A stretch of DNA of 64,000 nucleotides from Bacteroidales bacterium (GTDB lineage: Bacteria > Bacteroidota > Bacteroidia > Bacteroidales > UBA7332): positions 186,001-250,000 of the forward strand of contig JAQTZA010000003.1 in assembly GCA_028687995.1 (NCBI GenBank), in the 5' to 3' direction. The position numbers and the translations under genes were made by a program. The stretch's first letter is position 1, and the number at the start of each line of letters is the position of its first letter. The notes below the pieces were generated by a model. The model searched no databases and was not told the origin of the DNA. It saw only the letters and a list, made by a program, of their open reading frames with translations. Shown here piece by piece: positions 1 to 19,611 of the stretch.

Positions 1-1535
1 TTCGGCAAGCCTAGCAATGCAAGCGCAGTATTCGCACCAGAATATCCCAAAAATGGACGATTATTTACATCTTCGATTGAATAGTTGACTTTTGCATCCA
101 ACGTCAAATTCTTCCACATCCGCATAAATCCATTCACATTGAATGTATTACGATGCAGATTACTATTGGGAACGATATCGGTCATCTTATTATCCGCAGC
201 CGAAAAGTGGAAATTGGTCAACTCATTACCACCAGAAAACGAAACCGTATTCTGAATGTTAGAACCCGTTTGAAAAAAGCTCAACATATTGTTGTTTTTC
301 AACCCATAATCTCTTTGTTTTCCATCAAACGAAATAAACTGCAACTCAGGATTGAGTTTATCACCCCAGCTCCACATATAGGTAGCATCGACCAAATCTT
401 TCGGAGGAGAACCAATTCCTTGTCCATAAGTGTGTTGAATATCACCATATTGCCCAACCACCTTATCGAAAGACATGTTTGAATTAAACTCTGCGCTGAA
501 ATTATTGTTGGACGATTTATTCCATTTTTTTGTGGTAATCAAGATGACACCATTACCTGCTCTTGATCCATAAAGTGCAGCTGCGGCAGGGCCTTTCAGT
601 ACCGACATCGATTCGATATCATCTGGATTGATGGAAGAAATTCCATCACCCATATCCTGACCACCCCACTCGTCAGCCTCCCCTAAATTTGAGTTATCAA
701 TAGGCACACCATCCACCACATAAAGCGGTTGGCTGCTACCCGATATTTTTGAATTTCCTCGAATCAACACCTTTGACGAACCACCAACACCAGTATTGGA
801 TTGCATAATATCAACACCAGCCACTTTGCCCGAAAGAGAGTTGACGGCATTGATGCTTTTTACCTCTAGGATATCTTTCCCAGAGACTTTAGAAACTGAA
901 TAACCTAATGATTTTTCTTCACGACTTATACCCAATGCTGTTACGACCACTTCACTCAGATTCTTTGTGTCTTGCAAAAGGGTAATTTTGAAATTTGATT
1001 TATCTTCTGCGCTAATCTCCTGTGTGACGTATCCTAAGTATGAAACTGCAACTTTGGAAGTGGCAGGAACTTCTAATTTGAATTTTCCATCAATATCAGA
1101 AATTGTGCCAATCGCTGTTCCTTTCACGAGTATATTTACACCCATTAGAGGTTCGCCTAGATCATCTAACACAACACCTGATAGAACGCGTTTTTTGGAT
1201 AAATTTTGTTTTCGAATGACAACATTATTTCCAGTGATTGTATATTCTAGCTTTGAACCAATTAATACACTATCCATCAGTTGATTAATAGTCCAATTCT
1301 TTGCTTCTACATCAATTTTATTGTCATCGTATTTTTTTAAATCTGCATACGAAAAACGATATATTGACTGCTTCTCAACTTGATCAAACAAGTTTGTTAA
1401 GGAGACTTGATGTAGCGAAATAGTAATTCTATTTTTCGTTTGTGCTGTCGATAATTGCACAGCTGCAATGAATAAGAAGAGAACAAGGATTCTAAGAAAA
1501 GCGTTCGCTCTTCTCTGATAGGTTTGTTGTTTCAT
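1..1535 (-). CDS. SusC/RagA-type TonB-dependent outer-membrane transporter, partial
   Basis: About 511 residues are visible; the reading frame stays open to the left edge, so the beta-barrel C-terminus lies outside the window. Order seen: signal peptide (residues 1-31, ending LSTAQ), STN/secretin-TonB N-terminal domain (about 38-110), carboxypeptidase-regulatory-like domain (about 117-205), then a plug domain with the family signature LYGSRAGNGVILITT. SusC proteins import large ligands such as glycans across the outer membrane, usually with a SusD lipoprotein; SusD would be expected further left. The STN domain is the part that contacts FecR in signalling transporters, and FecR and sigma genes lie directly upstream on the same strand (33-nt gap to FecR). 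The ligand cannot be read from sequence. The frame is intact, so this is an edge truncation and not a pseudogene. Confidence 0.95.
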   Translation of the reverse strand, partial: MKQQTYQRRANAFLRILVLFLFIAAVQLSTAQTKNRITISLHQVSLTNLFDQVEKQSIYRFSYADLKKYDDNKIDVEAKNWTINQLMDSVLIGSKLEYTITGNNVVIRKQNLSKKRVLSGVVLDDLGEPLMGVNILVKGTAIGTISDIDGKFKLEVPATSKVAVSYLGYVTQEISAEDKSNFKITLLQDTKNLSEVVVTALGISREEKSLGYSVSKVSGKDILEVKSINAVNSLSGKVAGVDIMQSNTGVGGSSKVLIRGNSKISGSSQPLYVVDGVPIDNSNLGEADEWGGQDMGDGISSINPDDIESMSVLKGPAAAALYGSRAGNGVILITTKKWNKSSNNNFSAEFNSNMSFDKVVGQYGDIQHTYGQGIGSPPKDLVDATYMWSWGDKLNPELQFISFDGKQRDYGLKNNNMLSFFQTGSNIQNTVSFSGGNELTNFHFSAADNKMTDIVPNSNLHRNTFNVNGFMRMWKNLTLDAKVNYSIEDVNNRPFLGYSGANTALALLGLP

Positions 1536-1568: not shown

Positions 1569-2588
1569 TTATTTATTTCTAGCGCTCAACGTGATTGATT
1601 TGTTTATTTTTTTGAATTCAATTGGATACAGTTGTGTCAGAACTTTTAAAACATCATCAACACTTCCGTTTTCAAATCTACCAGTAAAAATTTCGCTATT
1701 AATACTTTTATTAGATTTTGGATAATCAATATTTACTCCATAAAATCGCTCTATCCGAGCCAAAACCAGTTTGAGCGGCTCTCTCCGAAAGATCAACTCT
1801 CCTCTCATCCATGCAGTTTCAATATTTGTATCCGATTTGGTTACTCCAAATTCTGAAGTTGCATTATTAGAGATGTATTTCTCGTTTGGTTTTAATATAA
1901 CAGGATTGCTATCTCCTTCCTTTTTAACCACTTTCACTTTGCCCGAAAGAAGTGTTACCTCAAATGTCTGTTCGTTTTGATAACTGAATACATTAAAACG
2001 GGTACCCATCACCTCAATATCTTGATGTTTTGTTTTTACAACAAACTTGTCTGTTTTACTTTTTCTAATATCAAAGAAAGCTTCTCCATCCAACTCAACA
2101 CTACGGTTTTTCTGATTAAAATTAGAAGAGTAAGTAAGTTTGGAAGCTGAATTTAGCTGAACCATTGACCCATCTGGCAATTCAATCATCGCTCTTTCCC
2201 CAGTTTTGGTTACAATAGAAATATTCTTTCCTTGAGGAGTGATGATGTTCGTCCAATCAAACAGATAATTGGATGCTACAAATAGCAGAAAAACAGCAGC
2301 GACTTTCCAAGCGATACTGATGCTTCTTCTAAAATTAAAACGTCTGACCGTAGAAACTTTAATTTTTTGATCAATCGCCAGTTTTACATCTTGCAATTGT
2401 GTCTCAAATTCATTTGGGCTACTTTCATATTCATTCCAAATCTGTGACAAGGCACTATAAGCCTCTTCATCTTGGATTTTTAATAAAGATTCGTTGAGAT
2501 TTTTCACATCATCAACATTTGCCTCTTTGTTAAAAATTTTATTCAGTAATATTGTTATTTTCTCTTTCATCTTGTTCGATCTTATCAT
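1569..2588 (-). CDS. FecR-family anti-sigma factor
   Basis: Inner-membrane anti-sigma/sigma-regulator that passes a ligand signal from the STN domain of the neighbouring transporter to the ECF sigma factor. The N-terminal cytoplasmic part (1-90) is helical and charged; one membrane segment sits near 91-108 (WKVAAVFLLFVASNYLF); the periplasmic FecR domain (about 118-215, with IELPDGSMVQLNSAS and VMGTRFNV) is followed by a C-terminal DUF4974-type domain (about 262-335). At 339 aa it is the usual length for the family. The start is uncertain: ATG at 2588 or an internal ATG at 2570 (MKEKITILLN); a TTG just upstream of 2588 is less likely. It lies between sigma (35-nt gap) and SusC (33-nt gap), so the three are probably one operon. 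Confidence 0.93.
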   Translation of the reverse strand: MIRSNKMKEKITILLNKIFNKEANVDDVKNLNESLLKIQDEEAYSALSQIWNEYESSPNEFETQLQDVKLAIDQKIKVSTVRRFNFRRSISIAWKVAAVFLLFVASNYLFDWTNIITPQGKNISIVTKTGERAMIELPDGSMVQLNSASKLTYSSNFNQKNRSVELDGEAFFDIRKSKTDKFVVKTKHQDIEVMGTRFNVFSYQNEQTFEVTLLSGKVKVVKKEGDSNPVILKPNEKYISNNATSEFGVTKSDTNIETAWMRGELIFRREPLKLVLARIERFYGVNIDYPKSNKSINSEIFTGRFENGSVDDVLKVLTQLYPIEFKKINKSITLSARNK

Positions 2589-2623
2589 CAATTGTAATAC
2601 ACTAAAGGAGGTAAATCATCACA

Positions 2624-3217
2624 CTATAAATTTATGTTGTTAAACATATTTAGCAACATTATATAAAAATTAAACACTGCTATTTTATTCAGATTTTCTT
2701 TCAAAATTCGCAAAGCTATGGATAGTTGATTGCTAACAGATTGTTCTGTAATTGATAATTTTTCGGAAATCTCATGTATTGAAAAACCATCCTCTTTGCT
2801 TAATCTAAATATTTCGAGTTGTCGTGGAGATAATTTAGACTTGGCAGCTCTCAAATTCTTAACAAAGTCATCGTAATCTATTTTCGTTTCGGTCGCATTT
2901 TCTGAGAGGGAAGCTGTATCTGCAAATTCAATATAATCGATAAATTGTTTATTGCCTGTTTGATTCCTTATCTCATTTAAAAGCTTATTTCTAGCTATCA
3001 TAAATAGAAATGATTGGAAAGAGAGATCTGGATTTAAGTCGGCTCGTTTTTCCCAAACTTTAATAAAGGTCTCCTGCACTATCTCTTTTGAAGTAGTGTG
3101 AGAGCGGATTAATCCAAATATGAATCCATAAAGTTTTGGGAAATACCGATGGTAAAGAATGGTGAAGTCATCATAAGATCCTTCTTTTAATCTCTGTACG
3201 TTGTGCGTGTCTTCCAT
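2624..3217 (-). CDS. ECF (sigma-70 family) RNA polymerase sigma factor
   Basis: A 197-residue sigma factor containing only regions 2 and 4, the definition of the ECF group. Region 2 spans about 15-85 (YHRYFPKLYGFIFGLI, then QETFIKVWEKR); region 4 spans about 130-180 with the helix-turn-helix IHEISEKLSITEQSVSNQL. It directs RNA polymerase to its target operon when released by FecR. The target is not shown by sequence; the adjacent SusC gene is the usual one, and the divergent secreted beta-helix genes starting at 3453 are another candidate. It is the first gene of a sigma-FecR-SusC block, the standard Bacteroidota arrangement. Confidence 0.94.
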   Translation of the reverse strand: MEDTHNVQRLKEGSYDDFTILYHRYFPKLYGFIFGLIRSHTTSKEIVQETFIKVWEKRADLNPDLSFQSFLFMIARNKLLNEIRNQTGNKQFIDYIEFADTASLSENATETKIDYDDFVKNLRAAKSKLSPRQLEIFRLSKEDGFSIHEISEKLSITEQSVSNQLSIALRILKENLNKIAVFNFYIMLLNMFNNINL

Positions 3218-3452: not shown

Positions 3453-5924
3453 ATGAAAAAAAATGTATTCTTTCTTTCTCTTGTCATGTTTGCCGGACTT
3501 TCTATATGGCAAGCAAATGCACAAATCAGTGCGACATCAACAGGTGGTGGTTCTGGATCTTACTCCACTCTAAAAGCCGCTTTTGACGACGTAAACGCTG
3601 GAGTTTTAACAGGGGACGTAACACTGCAAGTGACTGCAAGTACTTCTGAAACAGCAACAGCTTCACTAAGTGCAAGCGGCACAGGAGCTGCAAGCTACAC
3701 CTCGGTTGTGATTTATCCTACATCAGCCGACCTTTCAATTCTAGCAGACGGAACACTTCCAGCATCTTCACATTTAATAGTATTGGATGGTGCAGACAAT
3801 GTCACTATCGATGGACGAGTGAATCAATCTGGAGCAAGAGATAACGCTCATAGCTTGACTATTGCATCAACATCACTTACTGCTGCTACAATTGTTTTAC
3901 AATCTGACGCATCTACGAATACAATTAAAAATTGTATTCTAAAAGGAAATGCCACTTCGTCAAAAGGAATTGTTTGGATTGCTTCGAGCGCGACATTGGG
4001 CAACAACAGTAATTTAATTGATAATAACCTGATAACCAATAATGGCACTCGCCCTTTATATGCCTTCTATGCCAGCAACAATACACTAACCGCCCCAAAT
4101 ACAAACAATACAATTAGAAACAACGACTTCCAAGATTGCCTACCTTATGGAGCTGGCTGTATGGTCATTTTTGTAGCAGGGCATGCATCAAGCGTGATTT
4201 CTACTGGCTGGACTATTTCGGGAAATAGCTTCTACGAGACTGCCACTTATACTACAACAAATGGTGCTTCTGCAGCAATAAACTTTATCAATTTTGGGAC
4301 AAGTGGTACTACATCTACTGGAGATGGTAATGTAATCAGCGGTAATTATTTTGGTGGTACAGCTACACATTGTGGAGGCGGTACTTTTACCAAGACAAGT
4401 AGTACTTCTTTTGCAAATAACTTTTCCGGAATAAATGTCTACTCAATAACTGGAACAACTACGAGCATTCAAAACAATACATTTCAAAAAATAAGTTGGA
4501 CAAACAACACTGGAAGCTCAAACTGGAGAGCAATTGATGTGTATGGTACAGGTAGCTTCAATATTGGAACTGAAACTGGAAATACAATCGGAGACAACAC
4601 AACTACAGGTTCTATCGTTTTTGTGACCAACGTCAGTACTGCTGTGAATGCAAGTGTTTTTCCTATTCAAATTGGCAATACAGGAACAACAGTCTGTAAA
4701 AACAATAAAATTGGATCAATCACAGCATCCAATACCATTGCCGCGGCAACGAATGTGTCTCCTATTGCAGCAATCACAAAAGCTAGTGGTGCGGGTATTG
4801 TCGAAATTAGCAACAATATGATTGGAAGTTTAAGCACAGCGAATAGCATCTCTTCAGCTTTATCAACATCCGGAAGCGAAACTACAGGAATAAAATGCTA
4901 CAGTAGTGTAACCGGTAACAAAATTGAAAACAATACCATTGCCAACTTATCTTCTGGTGGAAGCACTGGTTTAATAAATGGAATTATGACTGGAAATACT
5001 GGTACAACAACCGTCAATGCCAACTTAATTCATAGTCTTTTTTCTTCTTCAAATAGTAACGGTGCTCAAGTAACAGGAATTTATTTGAACACAACTACGA
5101 ACACTGTTTGCACAAATAACATCATTGCCTTGAGTGCAATTGAGAATGGAACTGCTCAAACTCAAGTGTGTGGATTTCAAGAACAATCATCTGCAGCTGC
5201 GACTAAGCTATATCATAACACGGTTTATATCTACGGCACTGTTGATGCAGGAACTAGAAGATCTGCTTGTTATTACTCAGTGGCAACTGGAGCAACAAGC
5301 AATAGAGACATTCGCAATAATATTTTTATGAATGCGCGAACAGGTGGTGGATCACATAGCGCAATCAATTTTGCGACTACAGCAAATGGAACAATTTTAT
5401 CAAATTACAATGATATATATTCTGCTACCGCAAGCTCAATATGCGTTTACAATAGCGGTGGAAAAACCTTGGCTCAGTGGCAAGCTTTGGCTTTGCCAGT
5501 GACAGGTGGATCAACTTATGCACCTGATGCAAATAGTATTAGTCAAGATCCCGTATTCTACAATGCAGGTGGAACAACAGCTTTATCATATTCGGTAGTT
5601 CCTTCTCTTACAGGTACTCCTATCGCAACAGTTCCTACAGATTTTTCTGGCGTAACAAGATCAGGATCTACACCAAGTATGGGTGCATTTGAGAATAATT
5701 CAATCATTACAAAATTGAATGATATCAACGAAAATAACACTCGCATCATTCGTAATAGCGATGGTATCGTTGTTAATTTCGATGGACGTGCTTCAATAGA
5801 GCTCTATTCAATGAGTGGGAAATTAATTGAAAGAACGAATGCCGTTGGAAGTTACAACCGCAAATTAGAAAGTGGTGCTTATATCATTCGCGTGAACGGT
5901 AAATCTAGTAAGTTTATCAAATAA
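3453..5924 (+). CDS. Secreted parallel beta-helix protein with T9SS sorting domain
   Basis: An 823-aa exported protein. The signal peptide is 1-23 (cut after QANA). Residues about 24-110 form a distinctive module starting ISATSTGGGSGSYSTLKAAF and containing VTIDGR. The long middle (about 110-745) is built of Asn-rich turns such as NNTI, NNNLITNN and GNTIGDN, as in right-handed parallel beta-helices (pectate-lyase/NosD/autotransporter-like folds). The last ~60 residues (ELYSMSGKLIERT and GAYIIRVNG ... KFIK) match a type A T9SS sorting domain, so it should be carried across the outer membrane and anchored or released. The region from 24 on is clearly paralogous to the C-terminal halves of the genes at 6149 and 10029. 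No catalytic residues could be assigned; glycan binding, adhesion or polysaccharide cleavage are all possible. Confidence 0.85.
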   Translation: MKKNVFFLSLVMFAGLSIWQANAQISATSTGGGSGSYSTLKAAFDDVNAGVLTGDVTLQVTASTSETATASLSASGTGAASYTSVVIYPTSADLSILADGTLPASSHLIVLDGADNVTIDGRVNQSGARDNAHSLTIASTSLTAATIVLQSDASTNTIKNCILKGNATSSKGIVWIASSATLGNNSNLIDNNLITNNGTRPLYAFYASNNTLTAPNTNNTIRNNDFQDCLPYGAGCMVIFVAGHASSVISTGWTISGNSFYETATYTTTNGASAAINFINFGTSGTTSTGDGNVISGNYFGGTATHCGGGTFTKTSSTSFANNFSGINVYSITGTTTSIQNNTFQKISWTNNTGSSNWRAIDVYGTGSFNIGTETGNTIGDNTTTGSIVFVTNVSTAVNASVFPIQIGNTGTTVCKNNKIGSITASNTIAAATNVSPIAAITKASGAGIVEISNNMIGSLSTANSISSALSTSGSETTGIKCYSSVTGNKIENNTIANLSSGGSTGLINGIMTGNTGTTTVNANLIHSLFSSSNSNGAQVTGIYLNTTTNTVCTNNIIALSAIENGTAQTQVCGFQEQSSAAATKLYHNTVYIYGTVDAGTRRSACYYSVATGATSNRDIRNNIFMNARTGGGSHSAINFATTANGTILSNYNDIYSATASSICVYNSGGKTLAQWQALALPVTGGSTYAPDANSISQDPVFYNAGGTTALSYSVVPSLTGTPIATVPTDFSGVTRSGSTPSMGAFENNSIITKLNDINENNTRIIRNSDGIVVNFDGRASIELYSMSGKLIERTNAVGSYNRKLESGAYIIRVNGKSSKFIK

Positions 5925-5940
5925 GATTATAGCAAATTTT

Positions 5941-5992
5941 AGAAAAATGAACAACTCTCTTTCTTACAGAAAAAGTGGTTGTTCATTTTTCT
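5941..5992 (+). terminator. Intrinsic terminator-like hairpin after the 823-aa beta-helix gene
   Basis: A perfect 15-bp inverted repeat, AGAAAAATGAACAAC at 5941-5955 and its complement at 5978-5992, with the run of T inside the right arm. It lies 16 nt after the stop codon. The remaining gap to 6149 shows no other clear feature. Confidence 0.75.
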
Positions 5993-6148
5993 AATCTAAA
6001 AATAGACTGATGAAGAGTCTTCAGTTTCTGATCACAAGTATTTTCATACCTAAGAAACACCAATCAAAATTCAATAACATACACACACTGATTCAACTAC
6101 AATTAATTTTTTGATTATAACCTTAACATTAATCACCTAAAAAATTGT

Positions 6149-9100
6149 ATGATGAAAAACACAAAATTCTTGACCGTCTTCTTTTTTTTGAGCTTTACCT
6201 TTCTTTCTAGTAAAGCAACAAACTACTATTCCGATCCAGTATCGGGCAGCATGTCAAATCCAGGTACATCGGCAAGCCCATGGGCTAGTCTGAAGAGCAT
6301 TTTCGATGTTAATAAAACATTCACCGCTGGTGATACCATTTTTCTGAGAACGGGTAATCATGGATACGCTGTAGTAAAAGGTTCAAATACAAACTTTGTG
6401 GTCATCACACCTGAGGCAGGACAATCTCCGACTTTCACAAGAATACGGGTTGGAAATGGTGTAACTGCTGCCAATTATTGGAAATTGCACAAGCTGTATG
6501 TCGAAAGTGAAGCCTCTGGATTTCCCTATTCACTCATTGAAATTTATGCACCATCTACACACGTGACCATTAGCAATTGCACCGTAAAATCGAGTGCTAA
6601 TACTGCCGCTTGGACACGTGACGATTGGCGAACCCGATGCAACGACGGCATTTCGACCAGAGCGAATCTGAATGCATATCACATTTTAGAAGACAACATC
6701 ATTCAGAATACCAATCTCGGATTGCAGATTACATCTTCAAATACCATAGTCAGAAGAAATAAAGTGCAATATTTTACGCACGACGCCAGCAGAATAATGG
6801 CAAGCAACATCCTTTTCGAGAAAAATCAGATTATGGATTTAATCAAAGTGATGCTCTACACCGAAAACCATGATGACTTACTTCAAGCCTACACAACCGC
6901 TGGAGGAGGTGCTGGTATTGACACACTCAAAAACGATACCATCAGAGGCAATATATTTATCACCACAACCGATACTACTCGCGCTTTTAGAGGTTACACC
7001 CAGGGAATTGCATGCTTCGATGGCCCGTTGGTGAACTGGTCGGTAGAAAACAACATCGTGATGACCGACCATTGGCACGGAATTTCGCTTTATGGTGCTA
7101 CAAATTGCAGAATAGTCAATAACACAGTGCTGGATCCTTATGCTAAAACATTTGTCGATCCATACGATAACAATTCACCGAATCAAGGGCCAGCTTGGAT
7201 AAGTATCGACGAAAAGTCGTCGGCAATTCCAAGCACAAATAATTACATTGCAAATAACTTGGTAGCAAACAGTGTGTTGTTAGGCTCACCTTCAATGGCA
7301 ACCACTTCAAATAATATCATTGTTGGTGCAATCTCCAACTACAGCAACTATTTTGCAAATGTTTCTGATTTAGGGCAATTGCTAAATTTCGATTTACACC
7401 TTAAAACAGGATGCTCTGCTCTCGAAGCTGGAACAGCCATCAGCGGTTTGTCGAAAGATTACGACGACATCGCTAGACCAAAAGGTGACGCATTCGACGT
7501 TGGTGCTTACGAATACATTTATCCGGAAATCTCAGCATCAGGCACTACTGGCAGTGGCAATTACTCTACGCTGAAAGCTGCTTTCGACGACATAAACAAG
7601 GGGATTCTTACAGGATCTATCACACTCAAAGTAAATGTTTCGACCATCGAAACGGCTACAGCCCTTCTGAAAGCAAGTGGTACGACCACTGATGGAGGAA
7701 CATCTAGTTACACATCTGTGAAAATTTATCCTGCTTTTTCGAATCTTTCTATCAAAGGAGACATTCCATCAGGAAGTTTGATTGACCTGCAAGGAGCAAC
7801 TCATGTAACGATTGATGGAAGACAATACAGTGGTGCGAATCCTATAAACAACAACAAATCACTCACGATAGAAAATAGTGGTAATACTGCAGCAATTGCG
7901 GTCAATTTGAGTAGCCATGCAGAGTATGATGTGGTGAAATATTGCACAATAAAAGGTTACTCTGCATCAGCTTTGGGTGTAGTCAATTTCCAAACGCCAA
8001 CAACTTCAGGAAATGGAAATAGTCACAACAAAATTTGTGACAATACAATCACTGGAAACACATCAGGAAAACCATATTACGGGGTTATTTCTACAGGATT
8101 TTCGGGCTATCCGAGCATTGCGGACACAATCAGCAATAACGATTTTTCGCAGTCGTTTCAAGAAGGTGTTCCTTCTTCGGCTCTTTGTCTTTCGGGTGCA
8201 TTCAACAACAGTTGGGTTATTTCTGGTAACAGTATTTTCGACACAAGTTCGTCTATTGTTCCCTCAGCAGCCTCGGCGTATTATCCAATCAATATTTTGG
8301 GAGGCAATGGCTACACAATTACCGATAATTACATCGGCGGACAAGCTACTCAATGTGGCGGTAGCTCATTAAACAAAACGAATGCCGACAATAATATTTT
8401 TGCAGGAATTTATATAAAAACGGCATCGTCTGGTGCAGCATCGAGCATTCAAAACAACACAATCAAAAACATCTCCTGGTCAAATAACGGTATTGGCAAC
8501 TGGTACGGTATTTGGATTGATGGTGGTTCGGTAACGGATTTCAACATTGGAAACACAACTGGCAATACAGTTGGTTCTGATACAGGACCGGGATCCATCA
8601 ATTACACAGCAGCAACAAGTGGAACAGGCAATCTCTTTGGTATATACATCGGAACATCTGGTGCCACAAATTGCCAAAATAACAAGATTGGTTCGATTAC
8701 AGGATCAAACAGCTCAACTGGATTGGTATATATCTATTCGCTTTACAAATCGGGAACGGCTGGTGCAACCACCATTAGTGGAAATACTATTGGAAGCACC
8801 TCTACTGCCAATAGTATAAATTCGACCAGTGCAGTGGCTTCTCAAAACGTGTTTGGAATATATTGTGCTGGCACTTCTGCCTCAAATGCAATTAGCAACA
8901 ACACCATTGCAAACCTCGCAAACAGCACTACTACTGGCGCGATTTATGGCATATACCTCTCTGGCGTAGGAACGACTACATTGAACGCAAATCTGATTCA
9001 TACATTATCGATGTCATCCAACCTCACAACCGGTTTAATTACAGGTATTCTGCTAGGATCTTCGGTTAGTTCGACTTGCTCAAACAACATTATTCTGCTT

Positions 9101-9895
9101 GGAGGAAATAATCCTGCAACAATCTATGGATTCAACGAATCTGCCTCAGCTAAAGCGAATAATTTGTATCACAATACAGTCTATATCGACGGTGCTCCAA
9201 CCTCCAAATCGTTGAAATCGTATTGCCTTTATAGCGCAGGAACGGGATCAACAAATGCACGTAATTTCCTAAACAATATTCTGTACAACAACAGAGTAAA
9301 TGCAGGGGCTACAGGCAATAACTATGCGATTGGATTGGCGACTTATGGTTCGGGAACATTGGTGAGCAACTACAACGATTTGTATGTAGCAAATGCAACA
9401 AACAACTACGTTAGCATTTACAACACTTCCAATAAGAAAACACTGGCAAACTGGCAAACAACACTAATCAATGGTGGATATTTGGACCTTAATAGCCTAA
9501 ACATTAACCCATCTTTTGCTAGTGCGGGCGGTAAATTGGCTTCAAACTACATTCCATCGGCAGGTTCGTTGGCTGCAGGTGCTACAGGCACAGGCATTAC
9601 CGTCGATTACGGAGTTGGTACAAGAAGTTCAACAGTTCCATCTATCGGGGCTTTCGAATTGGGATCGACTTACAACAAAGTCGTTCGCCGTCAACAACCT
9701 GAAATGCCAACAACCGTGACTTTCACTAAAACAGGAGTTGAAGCCAATTTTAGCGAACCAAGTATCGTAGAAATCTATTCCATTCGCGGAGAATTGATTG
9801 AAAGAACAAGTTTGGTAAAAACTTATTCACGAACTCTATTGCAAGGAATCTACATCCTACGCATCAATGGAAAAGCAACTAAATTCAAAATATAA
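6149..9895 (+). CDS. Large secreted two-module beta-helix protein with T9SS sorting domain
   Basis: A 1248-aa exported protein. Signal peptide 1-23 (cut after SSKA). Module A (about 24-455) opens NYYSDPVSGSMSNPGTSASP and has GDTIFLRTGNHG, like right-handed beta-helix polysaccharide lyase/PL6-type and 'choice-of-anchor Q' proteins; it closes with DDIARPKGDAFDVGAYEY, a hallmark end of that module. Module B (about 460-1170) repeats the arrangement of the 823-aa neighbour (YSTLKAAFDDINKG, VTIDGR, many NNTI turns). A type A T9SS sorting domain ends the protein (EIYSIRGELIERT, GIYILRINGKATKF). Two adjacent ATGs (6149, 6152) could start it. It is probably a surface or secreted glycan-active or adhesive protein; the lyase idea rests on fold only, because a catalytic Lys/Arg pair could not be identified by eye. 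Confidence 0.85.
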   Translation: MMKNTKFLTVFFFLSFTFLSSKATNYYSDPVSGSMSNPGTSASPWASLKSIFDVNKTFTAGDTIFLRTGNHGYAVVKGSNTNFVVITPEAGQSPTFTRIRVGNGVTAANYWKLHKLYVESEASGFPYSLIEIYAPSTHVTISNCTVKSSANTAAWTRDDWRTRCNDGISTRANLNAYHILEDNIIQNTNLGLQITSSNTIVRRNKVQYFTHDASRIMASNILFEKNQIMDLIKVMLYTENHDDLLQAYTTAGGGAGIDTLKNDTIRGNIFITTTDTTRAFRGYTQGIACFDGPLVNWSVENNIVMTDHWHGISLYGATNCRIVNNTVLDPYAKTFVDPYDNNSPNQGPAWISIDEKSSAIPSTNNYIANNLVANSVLLGSPSMATTSNNIIVGAISNYSNYFANVSDLGQLLNFDLHLKTGCSALEAGTAISGLSKDYDDIARPKGDAFDVGAYEYIYPEISASGTTGSGNYSTLKAAFDDINKGILTGSITLKVNVSTIETATALLKASGTTTDGGTSSYTSVKIYPAFSNLSIKGDIPSGSLIDLQGATHVTIDGRQYSGANPINNNKSLTIENSGNTAAIAVNLSSHAEYDVVKYCTIKGYSASALGVVNFQTPTTSGNGNSHNKICDNTITGNTSGKPYYGVISTGFSGYPSIADTISNNDFSQSFQEGVPSSALCLSGAFNNSWVISGNSIFDTSSSIVPSAASAYYPINILGGNGYTITDNYIGGQATQCGGSSLNKTNADNNIFAGIYIKTASSGAASSIQNNTIKNISWSNNGIGNWYGIWIDGGSVTDFNIGNTTGNTVGSDTGPGSINYTAATSGTGNLFGIYIGTSGATNCQNNKIGSITGSNSSTGLVYIYSLYKSGTAGATTISGNTIGSTSTANSINSTSAVASQNVFGIYCAGTSASNAISNNTIANLANSTTTGAIYGIYLSGVGTTTLNANLIHTLSMSSNLTTGLITGILLGSSVSSTCSNNIILLGGNNPATIYGFNESASAKANNLYHNTVYIDGAPTSKSLKSYCLYSAGTGSTNARNFLNNILYNNRVNAGATGNNYAIGLATYGSGTLVSNYNDLYVANATNNYVSIYNTSNKKTLANWQTTLINGGYLDLNSLNINPSFASAGGKLASNYIPSAGSLAAGATGTGITVDYGVGTRSSTVPSIGAFELGSTYNKVVRRQQPEMPTTVTFTKTGVEANFSEPSIVEIYSIRGELIERTSLVKTYSRTLLQGIYILRINGKATKFKI

Positions 9896-9906
9896 AAATT
9901 AATTCC

Positions 9907-9951
9907 AACCGTCAATAATCGGTGTCAGATCTGATTATTGACGGTTTTTTT
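9907..9951 (+). terminator. Rho-independent terminator
   Basis: A 12-bp perfect stem, CCGTCAATAATC (9909-9920) with its complement GATTATTGACGG (9933-9944), followed by seven T (9945-9951). Adjacent A/T extend it. It ends the upstream beta-helix transcript 12 nt after its stop codon, so the next paralogue needs its own promoter. Confidence 0.88.
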
Positions 9952-10028
9952 ACAAAAAGACCAAAGATTTTGATTCCGAAAAAAAACACACAAATAAAAT
10001 TTTAAAATATACAATTAACACCATAAGA

Positions 10029-13000
10029 ATGATGAAAATTTGGTCACACAAGAAATCGCTATTTCTATTACTAATTATGTTTGGTTTGTTTGCGAAAACA
10101 AGCCGCGCAACAAACTATTACTCCGATCCAACTGCCACTGGAAAAATGACAAATACAGGCACTGCTGCAAGTCCATGGGGTAGCTTGAGTGCTATTTTTG
10201 CAGCAGGCAAAACTTTTATAGCAGGCGATACGATATTTCTAAAAACTGGTAATCACGGTTACGCAGTAGTGAAAGGATCAAATACAGGCTTTGTAGTAAT
10301 TACACCCGCCTCGGGTCAAAATCCGATTCTAACTCGATTAAGAGTTGGCAATGGCACAAATCAGACGGATTATTGGAAAATTTACAAGTTAAACATTCAA
10401 TCTATATCGACTACAGTTGGCTCAACAATAGGTGTCCCACTTGTCGAAATTTATGGGCTTAGCTCGCACGTCACCATCAGTGGATGCGCAATTTCGTCCA
10501 CATCAAATACAACGACTTGGAACCGAGCTGAATGGAGAGATAGCTGCAATAGCGGACTTTCTACGCGAGCCAATCTGAATGCGAACCACATCATTGAAAA
10601 TAATACGATTACCAATGTGGCATTTGGCATTCAAATATCATCCTCAAAAACAATCGTTAGAGGCAATACTGTTCAAAACTTCACACACGATGCCAGCAGA
10701 GTACTGGGTAGTAATATCATCTTTGAAAAAAATAAACTGTTTGATTTAATCAAGGTAATGGCATACTCCGAAAACCACGACGATTTGTTTCAGGCTTTTA
10801 CCACAGCAACACCGAATATAGGAATTGACACGCTTAAAAATGATACAATTCGACAAAATATTTTCATAAATACGACTGATACTACTCGCAACTTTCGTGG
10901 TTCTGCACAAGGAATTGGCTGTTTTGACGGACCTCTAGTGAATTGGTCTGTAGAAAATAATATTGTGTTAACCGACAATTGGCATGGAATAACGCTTAAT
11001 AGTGCCACAAACTGTCAGATAATAAACAACACTGTTTTAGATCCTTACCTCTATACCCCTGTCGATTCAGTCGATCAGAATGCGACCAGTGTAGGTCCCA
11101 CGTGGATAAGTATTTCCGAAAAATCTGGAATCATAAGTTCCAATAATGTTGTAAAAAATAATTTGGTGGCAAATACCGTGACAATTGGATCCCCAACGAT
11201 GGGAACAGCATCAAACAACATCATAGTCGGAGCAATATCCAATTACAGCACCTATTTCAAAGACGCATCAAATTTAGAACTGCCTGGCAATTTTGATTTA
11301 CACCTCAACACAGGTTGCGCCGCCGTCGATGCGGGCGTTGCCGTCACTTCTCCAACAAGCGATTTCGACGACATTCCCCGACCTCAAGGAGCAGCATATG
11401 ACATCGGTGCTTACGAATACAAAAATGCAGAGTTAGCTGCCACATCATCGGGTGGTGGTAGCGGTACGTATGGCACACTAAAAGCCGTTTTCGACGATAT
11501 AAATAACGGAAAATTGACAGGAAATATCACTGTTCAGGTGAAAGCCTCAACCATAGAAACTGCTTCGGCAGTACTGAAAGCCAGTGGAACGACAACTGCT
11601 GGCGGAACATCCAGCTACACGTCTGTGAAAATATTTCCTACTTCAGCCAATCTTTCGATAAGCGGGAACATCGCCTCCGGAAACTTAATCGATTTGCAAG
11701 GAGCCGATCACATAACAATCGACGGACGAATGTACGTTGGCGGAATTCCGAGCTCCGATTCAAAATCGCTGACTATCGAAAATAGCGCAGCCACAGCGGC
11801 CGTTGCCATTAATCTGGGAATTCACGCTGAATACAATTCTGTGAAATTCTGCACCATCAAAGGATATTCTGCAACTTCAAAAGGAGTGATAAATTTTCAG
11901 GCACCATCCACTGTCGGAAATGGAAATAGCCACAACTCAATCAGCGACAATACCATCACCGGAAATTCGACAGGGAAACCCTATTATGGAATCGTTTCCA
12001 CAGGATTTGCAGGTTCACCTAGTACTGCCGACACCATTCAATCGAATGAATTTCCTCAAATCCTGCAGGCTGGAGTTCCATCATCGGCTATTTGCTTATC
12101 AGGGGCATCTAACGACAGTTGGAAAATCTCGGGAAATAGCATCTACGACACCTCTTCGTCGTTCGCTCCAACAAGTACTTCTGCCTATTACGCTATCAAT
12201 ATTTTGGGTGGTTTTGGATACGAAATTACTGACAACTACATCGGTGGACAAACCGCACAATGCGGAGGAAATCCATTGACCAAAACGAATGTAAATAACA
12301 ATGTTTTTGCAGGGATCTATTTAAAAACGGCTGTTGCAGGAGCCGTATCGTCAATTCAAAACAACACCATTCAAAATTTTCTTTGGAAAAACAGTGGTAC
12401 TGGTCAATGGTACGGAATTATGATTGATGCCGGATCAGTTACCGATTTTAATATTGGAAACGTGAGTGGAAATACAATCGGCGACAACTCAACCACAGGC
12501 TCAATCAACTATACAGCAGGTGCTACAGGCGGAAATCTGTATGGAATCTATATTGCCACAACTGGAACGACATCTTGTCAAAACAATAAAATCGGATCAC
12601 TGTTAGGCAATAATAGTAAATCAGGAACTGGAGGAACAACCGCCGTAACTGCCATCTACAAATCAGCAACAGGTGGAACAACGAACATCAGCAATAACAC
12701 GATTGGAAGCCCAACAACAGCTAATTGCATTCTTACCACAAAGGCCATTGCTTCTCAAAATATTTATGGAATCAACTGTGCAGGAACTGCAACCACAAAT
12801 GTAATCAACAACAACGTCATTGCGAATTTGAAAGATAGCACGACAACCGGTACAATATATGGCATTTCGTTGACTGGTGGCAAGACTACTGTAAATGGGA
12901 ATCTAATTCACAGTCTCTTCTCCACGGCGGCTTCTACAGGAGCTATCACAACAGGCATTTCACTCGGAGCAACAGTGAGCACAACCTGCAGCAACAACAT

Positions 13001-13799
13001 TATTCTTTTAGGTGGAAACAACGCTGCAACCATTTATGGATTTAACGAAGCTGCAACCGCAGTAGCCAACAATATTTATTTCAACACAGTCTATATTGAT
13101 GGTGCACCAACGTTGAAAACACTGAAATCGTATGGCCTTTACAGTGCTGGAACCGGAGCGACAAATGCCAGAAACTTTAGAAATAACATCTTCTTCAACA
13201 ACCGGATTAATGCCGGAGCAACCGGAAATAATTATGCAATAGGTCTTGCTACTTACGGCACTGGAACGTTGGTTTGCAACTACAACGACCTGTTTGTTTC
13301 CGCTGCAACGAACAATTATGTTGGGATATACAATACTACAAATAAGAAAGCATTAATTGACTGGCAATCTACCGTCATTACTGGTGTTACGCTTGATGCT
13401 AATAGTAAAGGAGATGATCCTATTTTCGACAATGCTGGAGGCAAATTAGCAATTGATTATATTACTGCTACTTCATCGATTGTATCAGGAGCTACAAATT
13501 CAGGCATTTCAACTGACTTTGAGGGTATTTCGAGGAGTAATATTGCTCCAATAATGGGAGCTCTCGAAACCAGATCGCTAACAACTAATCTCAATGCTGA
13601 AAAACACCTTGAACCGAGTTTTAGAATCACAGAAAATGGCATTACCGCTGTTTTTAACGACCCGACTCTAGTGGAACTTTACACAATAGATGGTCTAAAA
13701 ATAGATCTAATAAAAACCACAGGAACATATTCCAGAAATCTGAAAAATGGAATTTACATAATTAGAATAAATGGAAATGCAACTAAATTCATTAAATAG
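10029..13799 (+). CDS. Second large two-module beta-helix protein with T9SS sorting domain
   Basis: A 1256-aa paralogue of the preceding gene with the same order: signal peptide 1-27 (cut after KTSRA), module A about 28-462 (NYYSDPTATGKMTNTGTAAS, GDTIFLKTGNHGYAVVKGSN, ending DIGAYEYK), module B about 467-1180 (GTYGTLKAVFDDINNGKL, ITIDGR), then a type A T9SS sorting domain (ELYTIDGLKIDL, GIYIIRINGNATKFIK). By eye more than half of the positions match the 6149 gene across the whole length, so this is a tandem duplication. It leads the closely spaced run of genes continuing to 17779 (13-nt gap to the protease). Function is inferred only from fold and export signals: surface glycan interaction or depolymerisation. 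Confidence 0.85.
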   Translation: MMKIWSHKKSLFLLLIMFGLFAKTSRATNYYSDPTATGKMTNTGTAASPWGSLSAIFAAGKTFIAGDTIFLKTGNHGYAVVKGSNTGFVVITPASGQNPILTRLRVGNGTNQTDYWKIYKLNIQSISTTVGSTIGVPLVEIYGLSSHVTISGCAISSTSNTTTWNRAEWRDSCNSGLSTRANLNANHIIENNTITNVAFGIQISSSKTIVRGNTVQNFTHDASRVLGSNIIFEKNKLFDLIKVMAYSENHDDLFQAFTTATPNIGIDTLKNDTIRQNIFINTTDTTRNFRGSAQGIGCFDGPLVNWSVENNIVLTDNWHGITLNSATNCQIINNTVLDPYLYTPVDSVDQNATSVGPTWISISEKSGIISSNNVVKNNLVANTVTIGSPTMGTASNNIIVGAISNYSTYFKDASNLELPGNFDLHLNTGCAAVDAGVAVTSPTSDFDDIPRPQGAAYDIGAYEYKNAELAATSSGGGSGTYGTLKAVFDDINNGKLTGNITVQVKASTIETASAVLKASGTTTAGGTSSYTSVKIFPTSANLSISGNIASGNLIDLQGADHITIDGRMYVGGIPSSDSKSLTIENSAATAAVAINLGIHAEYNSVKFCTIKGYSATSKGVINFQAPSTVGNGNSHNSISDNTITGNSTGKPYYGIVSTGFAGSPSTADTIQSNEFPQILQAGVPSSAICLSGASNDSWKISGNSIYDTSSSFAPTSTSAYYAINILGGFGYEITDNYIGGQTAQCGGNPLTKTNVNNNVFAGIYLKTAVAGAVSSIQNNTIQNFLWKNSGTGQWYGIMIDAGSVTDFNIGNVSGNTIGDNSTTGSINYTAGATGGNLYGIYIATTGTTSCQNNKIGSLLGNNSKSGTGGTTAVTAIYKSATGGTTNISNNTIGSPTTANCILTTKAIASQNIYGINCAGTATTNVINNNVIANLKDSTTTGTIYGISLTGGKTTVNGNLIHSLFSTAASTGAITTGISLGATVSTTCSNNIILLGGNNAATIYGFNEAATAVANNIYFNTVYIDGAPTLKTLKSYGLYSAGTGATNARNFRNNIFFNNRINAGATGNNYAIGLATYGTGTLVCNYNDLFVSAATNNYVGIYNTTNKKALIDWQSTVITGVTLDANSKGDDPIFDNAGGKLAIDYITATSSIVSGATNSGISTDFEGISRSNIAPIMGALETRSLTTNLNAEKHLEPSFRITENGITAVFNDPTLVELYTIDGLKIDLIKTTGTYSRNLKNGIYIIRINGNATKFIK

Positions 13800-13812
13800 A
13801 AAATTACAAAAA

Positions 13813-14970
13813 ATGAAAAAATTAATCAGTTTGCTCATCATCGCATCGACAACATTCTCCATATACGCGCAAGATTGCACTCCAGACGCTAACGGCAATG
13901 TCACGTGCAACGACTTTAATGCCAATGCAATGCTGAACATCGATTTACGCATAGAAAACAAACACAACGCAAGTGCGAATATGCCGATTTTTACAACCCA
14001 AAACCATTATGGCGGAAAATATGTACGCAATACCAATTGTTGGGCATATAACCTTGATTTGACCTGTGCCAGTCCGTGGAATTCGAAAGGAATCAATCTT
14101 CGGGCAGGGACGTTGATTACCCCTCGTCACGCCATCTTGGCGGCACATTACAATATTCAAACCGGAGATTCTATTCGTTTTATTACAAAAGATAATCAGA
14201 TTGTGCGTCGGAAAGTAATTGCCTTCTCGGTAAATACAGATTACAACATTACCTTTCCTGATATCGAAGTGGTAACATTGGATTATGATGTACCACCAAC
14301 CATCTCCCCCTGCCAGTTGTTACCTTCGAATGCGAAAGATTATCTTGCTAATGACGGAGCAGGATTACCTGGATTCTTTTTGGATCAAGATGAAAAAGCG
14401 ATAGTGGCAGATGTGAAATATTTGGGATTGAAACAGAGTGAAAATTTTGAATTTCAGGTACCAACAAAGGCTAATCGCGTTTCACTCTACGAACCAGTTG
14501 CTATGGGCGATAGCGGAGATCCAGTTTTTGTGGTATTGAATGGAAATCCAGTTTTAGTTGGTGTAATTACCTCTTATGGACCCTGGGGATATTCATTGAA
14601 TTATTTCTCTAACCTTCCTTCTGGAAATGCACAACCATACCAACGAATAGACGATTTGATAAAAGCTACTGATCTGAAAGCAGGCATAAATACTGGCTAC
14701 AAAGTTTCTTTCTTCGATTTTTCAGCCACAGCAATACCAACTGCAAAAGAGAATAAAGATCGAATTTTTGTACTAAATCGAGAACTAAACGTAAATTTGT
14801 CATCTGAAAATCAAGCTCAGATAATCGTTACAGATTTTACTGGAAGGCGTATATTGAATAAAATCTATAACAGTAAATTATCCAACTACACGCTACCAAC
14901 TTCAGGGATTTACATCGTAACAATCATAAAAGAAAAGACAAAAGAATCGTATAAAGTAATCGCAAAATGA
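13813..14970 (+). CDS. Secreted trypsin-like serine protease with T9SS sorting domain
   Basis: The ATG at 13813 is chosen because it gives a clean signal peptide (MKKLISLLIIASTTFSIYA, cut before Q20); longer in-frame starts overlap the previous gene. The 385-aa protein carries a plausible chymotrypsin-fold triad: His112 in ILAAHY, Asp150 in PDIEVVTLD and Ser234 in GDSGDPVFVV, followed by the VGVITSYG strand that normally precedes the end of the domain. The last ~75 residues (IIVTDFTGRRIL, SGIYIVTII ... YKVIAK) look like a T9SS type A domain. It overlaps the next gene by 4 nt (ATGA), so the two are translationally coupled. A role in processing the neighbouring secreted beta-helix proteins or in substrate digestion is inference. 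Confidence 0.82.
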   Translation: MKKLISLLIIASTTFSIYAQDCTPDANGNVTCNDFNANAMLNIDLRIENKHNASANMPIFTTQNHYGGKYVRNTNCWAYNLDLTCASPWNSKGINLRAGTLITPRHAILAAHYNIQTGDSIRFITKDNQIVRRKVIAFSVNTDYNITFPDIEVVTLDYDVPPTISPCQLLPSNAKDYLANDGAGLPGFFLDQDEKAIVADVKYLGLKQSENFEFQVPTKANRVSLYEPVAMGDSGDPVFVVLNGNPVLVGVITSYGPWGYSLNYFSNLPSGNAQPYQRIDDLIKATDLKAGINTGYKVSFFDFSATAIPTAKENKDRIFVLNRELNVNLSSENQAQIIVTDFTGRRILNKIYNSKLSNYTLPTSGIYIVTIIKEKTKESYKVIAK

Positions 14971-16811
14971 AAAAACTAAGTGTTTTTGTTTTCCTAATGC
15001 CGCTATTTGTTTCAGCTCAAACCCACTATTGGAACGAGAAAACACAACTAATTCCCTGGCGTTTACCCTTGGTATCTGACAGCAAAAACATCGAATACAT
15101 CGACCTCGATAAAGACGGCGATCCCGACATTCTGAAAACCACTATTTTGGATGGCATTCCGATTATGTGGATCGACGACGACGACGATATGAAATACGGT
15201 GATTTGGAAGGAGATCAAGACAACGATTGCCTTTTAGTGGATAAAAATCGCGATGGGAAATTTGCCGGACCAATGGATTTAAGCATCGACTGGACTGACA
15301 CAAACGGCGACGGAATTGCCGATGTTCAATTGTTGGTCATCAACGGAGATATCAACACGCGCAGTTTCTTCGATTGGAAATCAGACGTCATGTATATGAT
15401 TGATTTTGGAGAAAAAGACGGAATACACAATTTTATCAATTGGAACGATTTGGTAATGGGAGGTTGGGAACACAGCGGCTACTCTAATTTCTATACCGAT
15501 TATCACGGGAATACCCTTTTCCTGAAAATGAGCGCATCTTCATTTAGAATCAACGACTTGCGCTACAGTTGGGAAAACCCATTTATTTTCTACGATGAAG
15601 ACAATGATGGATTGTCGGAGATGGCAATCCGATTGGTCGATATGCCAATTTTCAGGCCTTCTAAAGATTACGTTGGAAAGGTAAATTATCCGTATGGAAT
15701 GACCGACACTCAAAAGAATAATCCAAAGATGGATTCGCTTTTCAAAGGTGTGGATTCGGAACGCGACATACAATTCTCTAAACAGATAAGTTGGGTGAGC
15801 ATTGCTTGGGATTTGGATAACGACAACGGACAAAGCAACGAATTTGACTTCGATATGAGTCTCTGCTTCTCCGGCGAAGGTTTTAATTATGCCGATCAAG
15901 TCCACACATTCAAAAATATGAAAGGACTCGCTGCTGCCGACTCACTACTCTACGACTCGCGTTGGCGACACAACGACCAACTGATTTATACCGATCAGAA
16001 GAGTGCTTATCCCTCTATTTTCAAAAAAGGCAAATGGAACTCTTGCTGGATGACTTTCGACGAAGACGACGACTGCAACCGTTGGGAGCGCGTCGAACTC
16101 TATGAACCCAAAAATTTATGGAAAATAGGTCGTTCCTCTGGTGGATTAGATAATAACAATCAAGCCGATGCCATAGGCGATCGTGGCGAATTTGACGCAG
16201 ATAATTCAGGGAAAGGAAGGTTGTACATCGCACCATTTGACGGACGAATCCACTTATTAGGTGCCGAATGGGGAACTTGGCGAATCGATATGAGTGCGGC
16301 TTGTTTCCAAGGATATGGTGGTTTGTATGCACCAGCAACTTCGTTTGAGCGACTGACCAAAAATCCCGAACGCTGCGCCACCATTCGTTACTCTGATACC
16401 AACAAAAACGGGTTTATCGATTGCATCGAATATGATTTAGATGGTGATACGATTTTCGAAGATAAGGTTTCGTTAATGGAGTTGGGCATCGACGACAAAG
16501 CATCCATCATCGAGACCGGAAATATGAATTACCGCTCGATGAACAAGCTTTTCAGCAAACTCACCAATGAAATGTGGATGAGAGCCGAAAAGGTCGTAAA
16601 AATTGCAGAAAAACAAGGTATAAGTTCCTCGTGGTACGCCTTTTGGAAACAGCCTCGCACGATCAATGAGCACTACCAATATGCTTATTGGTTGACATTC
16701 TACCTCTACAAAGATATGTGCCACAAAGCGTTGTTAAGTGGAGATAAGTCGCTTAAAATAAAACTCGACAAGGCATACTATTCGGGCGATTGGGGGACAT
16801 TTCACAACTGA
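14967..16811 (+). CDS. Secreted Asp-rich (calcium-binding-type) protein of unknown function
   Basis: A 614-aa protein with signal peptide 1-17 (MKKLSVFVFLMPLFVSA). It carries many DxDxDG-type loops like EF-hand, dockerin or thrombospondin type 3 repeats: DLDKDGDPD at 46-54, then DKNRDGKF, DTNGDGIAD, YDEDNDGLSE, DLDNDNGQSNEFD, FDEDDDCNRWE, DTNKNGFIDCIEYDLDGD. These probably bind Ca2+. Between them are aromatic-rich stretches (APFDGRIHLLGAEWGTWRID), and the C-terminal ~110 residues look helical. No T9SS sorting domain or lipobox is evident, unlike its upstream neighbours, so it is probably periplasmic or exported another way. I do not recognise the family. It shares 4 nt with the protease gene before it and is 5 nt from the aldo/keto reductase after it, so it is surely in one operon. 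Confidence 0.7.
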   Translation: MKKLSVFVFLMPLFVSAQTHYWNEKTQLIPWRLPLVSDSKNIEYIDLDKDGDPDILKTTILDGIPIMWIDDDDDMKYGDLEGDQDNDCLLVDKNRDGKFAGPMDLSIDWTDTNGDGIADVQLLVINGDINTRSFFDWKSDVMYMIDFGEKDGIHNFINWNDLVMGGWEHSGYSNFYTDYHGNTLFLKMSASSFRINDLRYSWENPFIFYDEDNDGLSEMAIRLVDMPIFRPSKDYVGKVNYPYGMTDTQKNNPKMDSLFKGVDSERDIQFSKQISWVSIAWDLDNDNGQSNEFDFDMSLCFSGEGFNYADQVHTFKNMKGLAAADSLLYDSRWRHNDQLIYTDQKSAYPSIFKKGKWNSCWMTFDEDDDCNRWERVELYEPKNLWKIGRSSGGLDNNNQADAIGDRGEFDADNSGKGRLYIAPFDGRIHLLGAEWGTWRIDMSAACFQGYGGLYAPATSFERLTKNPERCATIRYSDTNKNGFIDCIEYDLDGDTIFEDKVSLMELGIDDKASIIETGNMNYRSMNKLFSKLTNEMWMRAEKVVKIAEKQGISSSWYAFWKQPRTINEHYQYAYWLTFYLYKDMCHKALLSGDKSLKIKLDKAYYSGDWGTFHN

Positions 16812-16816
16812 TTATT

Positions 16817-17779
16817 ATGTACAAAATCGAACTCGGACAAACTGGCGAATACATCAGCACCATCGGACTTGGCACAATGTATTTTGGATCGAAAATTGAT
16901 GAGCAACGCTCGTTTGAACTATTAGACAAATACACTAAATATGGCGGCTCGTTGTTCGATTCTGCTAATAAATATGCAAGTTGGATTCCGGGATGTAAGG
17001 GCGGAGAAAGCGAACAATTACTTGGCAAATGGATTAAAGAACGTGCAAACAGGCAACAGATTTTCGTCACTTCGAAAGTCGGGTTTCCGTATGGTGAAAT
17101 CCCTAAATCGCTCAAGAAGGAGATTATCATTTCGGAATGCGAGAAGAGTCTTAAAAGATTAGACATCGAAACAATTGACCTCTATTTTGCCCATTCTTTC
17201 GATAATGAAACTCCAATAGAAGAGTCTATGGAAGCATTCTTTCTCCTCAAAAAAGAGGGGAAAATCAGATTTGCTGGAGCGAGCAATTTCTACAGTTGGC
17301 AGCTACAAAAAGCAAATTTAGCCGCGAAAAATCAAGATTGGGAAGGTTTTTCGGCTCTACAACAAAGACACACTTATCTTGAACCGACTCTTCGCGTTGA
17401 TTTTGGTACTCAAGTGATATTAACTCCTGAAATGGAACAATTTTGCAACGAAGAACAAACAACTATTATGGCATACTCACCTCTTTTAGGAGGGGCATAC
17501 TCGAAGAGCTTTTCATCGCTTCCTATACAATATCAGCATCCACTTTCAGTTCAAATGTTCTCAGTACTTAAAAATGTGGCAGACGAACTCCAAGTTTCAC
17601 AAAATGCAGTGGTTTTGGCATGGATGATGCAAAACACTCCGACCATAATACCTCTGATTAGCACCAGTTCAATCGCACAGCTTGAGGAAAACCTTAAGGT
17701 GCTATCTGTTACTCTTTCTAAAAATCAACTGGATCAATTAAATCAAAACAGAGAACAGATTGTCCCTGTTTTTAGCTAA
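16817..17779 (+). CDS. Aldo/keto reductase
   Basis: A 320-aa NADPH-dependent (beta/alpha)8-barrel oxidoreductase without signal peptide, hence cytoplasmic. The start at ATG 16817 gives MYKIELGQTGEYIS, the normal N-terminus for the family; an upstream in-frame start would overlap the preceding gene. The catalytic tetrad is intact: Asp48 (LFDSAN), Tyr53 (NKYASW), Lys87 (TSKVG) and His126 (YFAHSFD). GASNFYSWQL and the C-terminal LISTSS segment fit the cofactor-binding part. The substrate is probably a sugar or other carbonyl compound; its place at the end of an operon of secreted glycan-type proteins would suit metabolism of a released unusual sugar, but that is inference. The last 8 nt overlap the convergent amidotransferase gene. 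Confidence 0.92.
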   Translation: MYKIELGQTGEYISTIGLGTMYFGSKIDEQRSFELLDKYTKYGGSLFDSANKYASWIPGCKGGESEQLLGKWIKERANRQQIFVTSKVGFPYGEIPKSLKKEIIISECEKSLKRLDIETIDLYFAHSFDNETPIEESMEAFFLLKKEGKIRFAGASNFYSWQLQKANLAAKNQDWEGFSALQQRHTYLEPTLRVDFGTQVILTPEMEQFCNEEQTTIMAYSPLLGGAYSKSFSSLPIQYQHPLSVQMFSVLKNVADELQVSQNAVVLAWMMQNTPTIIPLISTSSIAQLEENLKVLSVTLSKNQLDQLNQNREQIVPVFS

Positions 17780-19565: not shown

Positions 19566-19611
19566 TATCTGTCTTTTTGAATTGGGATATTATTCAAACA
19601 TTTTCTTGTTG

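Follow-up and report, generated by a model that had tools for sequence, protein, structure and literature searches.

Two tandem genes of a Bacteroidales bacterium encode putative surface proteins that fuse a candidate carbohydrate-active beta-helix to a second, longer beta-helix

Two adjacent genes of a Bacteroidales bacterium (GenBank assembly GCA_028687995.1) encode proteins in which two different modules, A and B, precede a tail of the type used for type IX secretion (T9SS). In the reading that we favor, to which we give a probability of roughly 0.6, both products are T9SS-exported surface proteins, module A being a beta-helix carbohydrate-active unit, likely an enzyme, and module B an arm or a polymer binder. 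The genes lie in a stretch of 64,000 nucleotides (contig JAQTZA010000003.1, positions 186,001 to 250,000), called the window here, whose relevant features are collected in Table 1. The initial annotation, made from the letters, had described a first gene with B and a tail followed by two with A, B and a tail, and the open reading frames and motifs were located as it had claimed. Module A ends in GAYEY at residues 452-456 of the gene 2 product and 460-464 of the gene 3 product. The opening motifs named for module B were likewise found in all three genes: a G/S-rich link, then YSTLKAAFDD in the 823- and 1248-aa genes or YGTLKAVFDD in the 1256-aa gene, and downstream of it VTIDGR or ITIDGR.

Table 1. 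Features of the window discussed in the text (window coordinates; ~ marks approximate ends)
Feature	Coordinates	Strand	Remarks
SusC-type TonB receptor	1..1535	-	start at 1535; runs past the window's left edge
FecR-type anti-sigma factor	1569..2591	-	
ECF sigma factor	2624..3217	-	divergent from gene 1
Gene 1 (B1)	3453..5924	+	823 aa; signal peptide, module B ~3513-5708, T9SS type A sorting tail ~5709-5921
Terminator-like hairpin after gene 1	~5939..5994	+	fold z -7.3; longer loop
Gene 2 (AB2)	6149..9895	+	1248 aa; signal peptide, A, B, tail
Module A, gene 2	6221..7516	+	predicted right-handed beta-helix; choice-of-anchor Q stretch closes the module
Conserved column of A, gene 2	6782..7078	+	D188, R191, H217, D219, Q222, Q261, D267, W273, H284, H286 (module numbering); presumed active site
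Module B, gene 2	7517..9673	+	predicted long beta-helix; closing motif IGAFE
Intrinsic terminator after gene 2	9907..9946	+	consensus scan; fold z -6.9
Gene 3 (AB3)	10029..13799	+	1256 aa; A + B + tail; sister copy of gene 2; A ~10113-11420, B ~11421-13583

A model of module A of gene 2, built from 82 sequences (pLDDT 94.3, pTM 0.93), is a right-handed beta-helix. Its best fold matches (Foldseek, VIA) were LnbX of GH136, Pel9A of PL9, rhamnogalacturonan lyase, XylC, PL6 and AlgE4; the beta-helix fold expected by the initial annotation, which had proposed a comparison with PL6 and other lyases, was thus borne out, but PL6 is one of several families that fit equally well. The best Foldseek match was the catalytic domain of the lacto-N-biosidase LnbX (E 3e-8; VIA Z 23.7 over 369 residues). 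GH136 enzymes carry an acid/base and a nucleophile Asp seven residues apart, D568 and D575 in E. ramulus (PMC7335108). The beta-helix catalytic fold is common to GH136 and A, whereas the Asp spacing is without equivalent, no seven-residue acid spacing occurring among the acidic positions conserved in at least 93% of 82 A modules. Searches of A against curated enzyme families gave no match above threshold and a profile search against PDB structures returned nothing at E up to 10, while a single-sequence search against solved structures yielded the N-terminal part of rhamnogalacturonan lyase alone (E 0.012).

Lyases of families PL6 and PL9 have a catalytic Lys/Arg and a calcium site. The PL9 pectate/rhamnogalacturonan lyases and the PL6 lyases have their fold and a generic N-terminal cap in common with A, but no profile match joins them to it. 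That A itself belongs to one of these two polysaccharide lyase families appears unlikely: Pel9A (Z 27.6) and PL6 enzymes (Z ~25) are among its Foldseek/VIA matches, yet epimerases and glycosidases score about equally well or better, and R191 is the sole near-invariant basic residue of the conserved column besides the histidines. The Chondroitinase B profile PF14592, which we take to stand for PL6, has weak matches (E of 0.01 or better) in 2 of 82 A modules, but the A modules of the window do not match it and hit only the generic Beta_helix model.

Module A also has a conserved column of ten residues (Table 1), each retained by 83-88 of 88 A sequences from about ten phylum-level names. All ten lie on or near predicted strands of neighboring turns and, in the model, can be read as one face, suggesting that the column is a probable carbohydrate active site. 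Module A would then be a complete carbohydrate-active unit, with catalysis its most likely activity.

Full-length A occurs at four places in the bacterium's own genome: the two fusions, a stand-alone protein on contig C3 (A544) and a further A-family protein (A727). A profile scan of named genomes gave 206 A relatives, and the 80 loci retained, mostly metagenome-assembled, fall by their record titles into about ten phylum-level groups. In all 80 loci (of the 206 candidates) the A frame is without B. Many A proteins from outside the Bacteroidota end no more than ~15 residues from the GAYE motif, and those of Bacteroidota usually run 80-100 residues past it, the length of a sorting tail. Since A stands in frame without B throughout these loci and proteins end near GAYE, module A is a complete unit, as was anticipated when GAYEY was taken for a complete protein end. 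A was found in 5 of 295 genomes of the order, own included, and within the family A or B was found, at the thresholds used, only in the own genome of four. No A+B fusion occurs in the 80 A loci (of 206 candidates), and none other than the bacterium's own among 395 genomes of the class, for which up to two candidates per genome were scored and read from the listed match ranges. A search for more A, B and A+B proteins, suggested at the outset, yielded further A and further B, but, among these loci and genomes, A+B in the own genome alone.

The end of module A matches the choice-of-anchor Q model (NF041518, cut-off 25 bits), with scores of 35.8 and 52.9 in genes 2 and 3, and 82 of 82 aligned A modules match it at E 0.01 or better. 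The model spans just 58 positions at the end of A and names no function. A similar closing motif is present in B, where a sub-threshold match was obtained only in the 823-aa protein. Literature searches on "choice-of-anchor Q" and on the combination of beta-helix, type IX, PUL and duplication found no paper.

A544, the nearest stand-alone relative, has a clear sorting tail and adjoins GH106, creatininase and GH3 genes, with a SusC/SusD pair in the neighborhood. Its GH106 and GH3 neighbors make plant cell-wall or rhamnose-containing glycans our first guess for the substrate of A. The same contig holds, at ~509-568 kb (L142-L144), a large polysaccharide cluster with SusC/SusD, GH106, GH3, GH20, a glucuronyl esterase, a SASA esterase and a Pel9A-like helix protein. 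Around other A loci (10 proteins from six loci; 206 frames listed from 22 loci) the neighbors are mixed and mostly not carbohydrate-related: five of the six loci scanned show genes such as peptidase, amidase, urocanase, phosphoglucomutase and helicase, and one, L051, has carbohydrate-active neighbors. In another genome of the order (L023), an A gene adjoins a frame that is GH28-like by motif reading. An asparagine-synthase-like gene at 17772-19565 of the window, used as a synteny probe, gave one match, at 29% identity, in three genomes of relatives.

Module B occurs at eight places in the genome: the three window genes and proteins of 783, 1974, 2625, 1647 and 1052 aa. The 783-aa protein (B783), on the same contig as the window, consists of B and a tail, and the 1974- and 2625-aa proteins of contig C3 show weak matches to BNR/glycosyl-hydrolase propellers. 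These two very large proteins (L017:5500-11424 and 11733-19610) combine B with Ig-like repeats, by our own reading, and a BNR/glycosyl-hydrolase-like propeller. Within the phylum B was found in 15 of 395 genomes, own included. The closing motif of B resembles that of A, taking forms such as MGAFE, IGAFE and MGALE in the eight own modules and recurring, with variations, in the majority of the 15 outside modules. The model of B from gene 2, built from three sequences, is of moderate confidence (pLDDT 69.6, pTM 0.80) and shows the strands of a long helix; a sequence search of B against solved structures returned nothing. This second, longer beta-helix may hold A off the surface or bind the same polymer. 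A parallel for the latter is offered by CBM89, a beta-helix that binds xylan and is attached to a GH10 (PMC8810776), which shows that such a helix can act within an enzyme as a carbohydrate-binding module without catalytic function.

The same module raises the possibility, which we consider rather doubtful, that the A+B proteins serve the cell surface as adhesins or fibers without catalysis, in which both helices bind or space only. Relatives of B in other Bacteroidota lie within open frames of ~1000 to 5600 aa, B stretches being repeated in several of them, and matches of the B model include the adhesin PfbA and tailspikes, but ten near-invariant residues of A across distant phyla exceed the needs of a passive spacer.

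Export by the T9SS is suggested by the tails. The tail of gene 1 scores 23.8 bits against the sorting domain TIGR04183, above the NCBIfam cut-off of 23; that of gene 3 falls below it at 17.3 bits, and that of gene 2 gives no match and was assigned by alignment to the other tails. Of the sorting domain ascribed to all three genes, only the copy in gene 1 passes the NCBIfam cut-off, that in gene 3 being sub-threshold and that in gene 2 dependent on the alignment. The tails of genes 1, 2 and 3 and of B783 are alike (37-48% identity), those of the two propeller proteins (1974 and 2625 aa) less similar (24-31%, one 36%), and the other B proteins' tails mostly less like this set. PorU (two copies) and SprA, the two components of the machinery searched, were detected in the genome above cut-off, and we infer that the products of genes 2 and 3 are T9SS-exported to the cell surface. 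The two PorU-type sortases of this one genome (L167, L168) are full-length.

To elucidate the history of the three genes, their modules were compared pairwise and in trees. The A modules of genes 2 and 3 (A2, A3) are 66% identical and their B modules (B2, B3) 67%, while that of gene 1 (B1) is 47% identical to B2 and 45% to B3, with E-values of the module matches in whole-genome searches far beyond chance. A2 and A3 are sisters in the A tree (SH-aLRT 95), which was made by a quick method from 38 of the 88 A sequences; two of the 88, G053 and L040, are separated by zero distance in this tree and probably come from the same genome. B2 and B3 are sisters (support 100/99) in a tree of 23 B modules, the outside ones hand-picked. 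The equal identity in A and B is expected if fusion preceded duplication, and the proposal that A was joined upstream of B and the fusion then duplicated is supported by these identities and by the sister positions in both trees. Third codon positions of genes 2 and 3 are 42% identical, which argues for an old duplication; NG86 gave no value of dS for this pair. By their sequences, then, genes 2 and 3 are sister copies of one A+B fusion whose duplication is old. In the proposed course of events, a stand-alone A, like A544, would have been joined ahead of a protein of B and tail, and the fusion would subsequently have duplicated.

The claim that all three genes form one tandem family did not survive the phylogeny that the initial annotation had itself named as its test. 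B2 and B3 cluster with the B modules of the 2625- and 1974-aa propeller proteins on contig C3 (100/99), and a tree constrained to unite the three window B modules was rejected (AU p 0.012), so that B1 is not the closest relative of B2 and B3. A single local tandem series, with the 823-aa gene having lost A or being the fusion's parent, would accord with the adjacency of the genes and with the likeness of their tails and that of B783, but given this rejection and the placement with the propeller proteins it is quite improbable. Gene 1 would instead represent a B lineage of its own whose tail is similar, a more distant cousin of genes 2 and 3. Since the B modules nearest to B2 and B3 carry other tails, the parts of the fusion would not have come from one simple donor.

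Genes 1-3 lie beside a divergent unit that had been described as ECF sigma/FecR/SusC; its adjacent genes agree with that description, although the receptor's match to STN, a domain that receptors of such signaling units carry, is weak (22.6 bits against a cut-off of 28.4). Away from gene 1 the order is ECF sigma, FecR, SusC, SusD, lipoprotein and, as the last gene, A727 (L015:2334-4517, contig C20:178334-180517, to the left of the window). A727 departs from the A family at 7 of the 10 conserved sites, whereas no other of the 88 sequences has as many as three departures; A727 is probably a non-catalytic binder. The neighboring sigma unit might control genes 1-3, a guess suggested by its position.

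A more far-reaching reading, itself improbable in our estimate, is that A founds an unnamed family of beta-helix carbohydrate enzymes spread over about ten phyla, the column-degenerate copy that closes the sigma/FecR/SusCD unit acting as a glycan-capturing or sensing partner to the intact copies fused to B in the divergent genes; such a live/dead pair would cut and sense the same polymer. Module A is common, was found under no curated functional name and has a sharply conserved column, so that one enzyme assay could name the function of stand-alone proteins at no fewer than 80 loci, with the degenerate A727 as a natural inactive control. In the modular picture that emerges, beta-helix units would recombine as whole pieces, a similar closing motif ending each.

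The separate terminators proposed for genes 1 and 2 were found as strong hairpins (Table 1), that of gene 1 being overlooked by the consensus scan and recognized from its fold z. Downstream of gene 3 there is no terminator hairpin (fold z 0.3); translation could next start ~14 bases further on, at a likely start codon at 13813. The frame that it opens, 13813-14970, encodes a secreted protein whose AAHY and GDSG motifs look like those of a trypsin-type protease; a Pfam search of this product gave no protease match, and its sorting tail scores over the NCBIfam cut-off and below that of Pfam.
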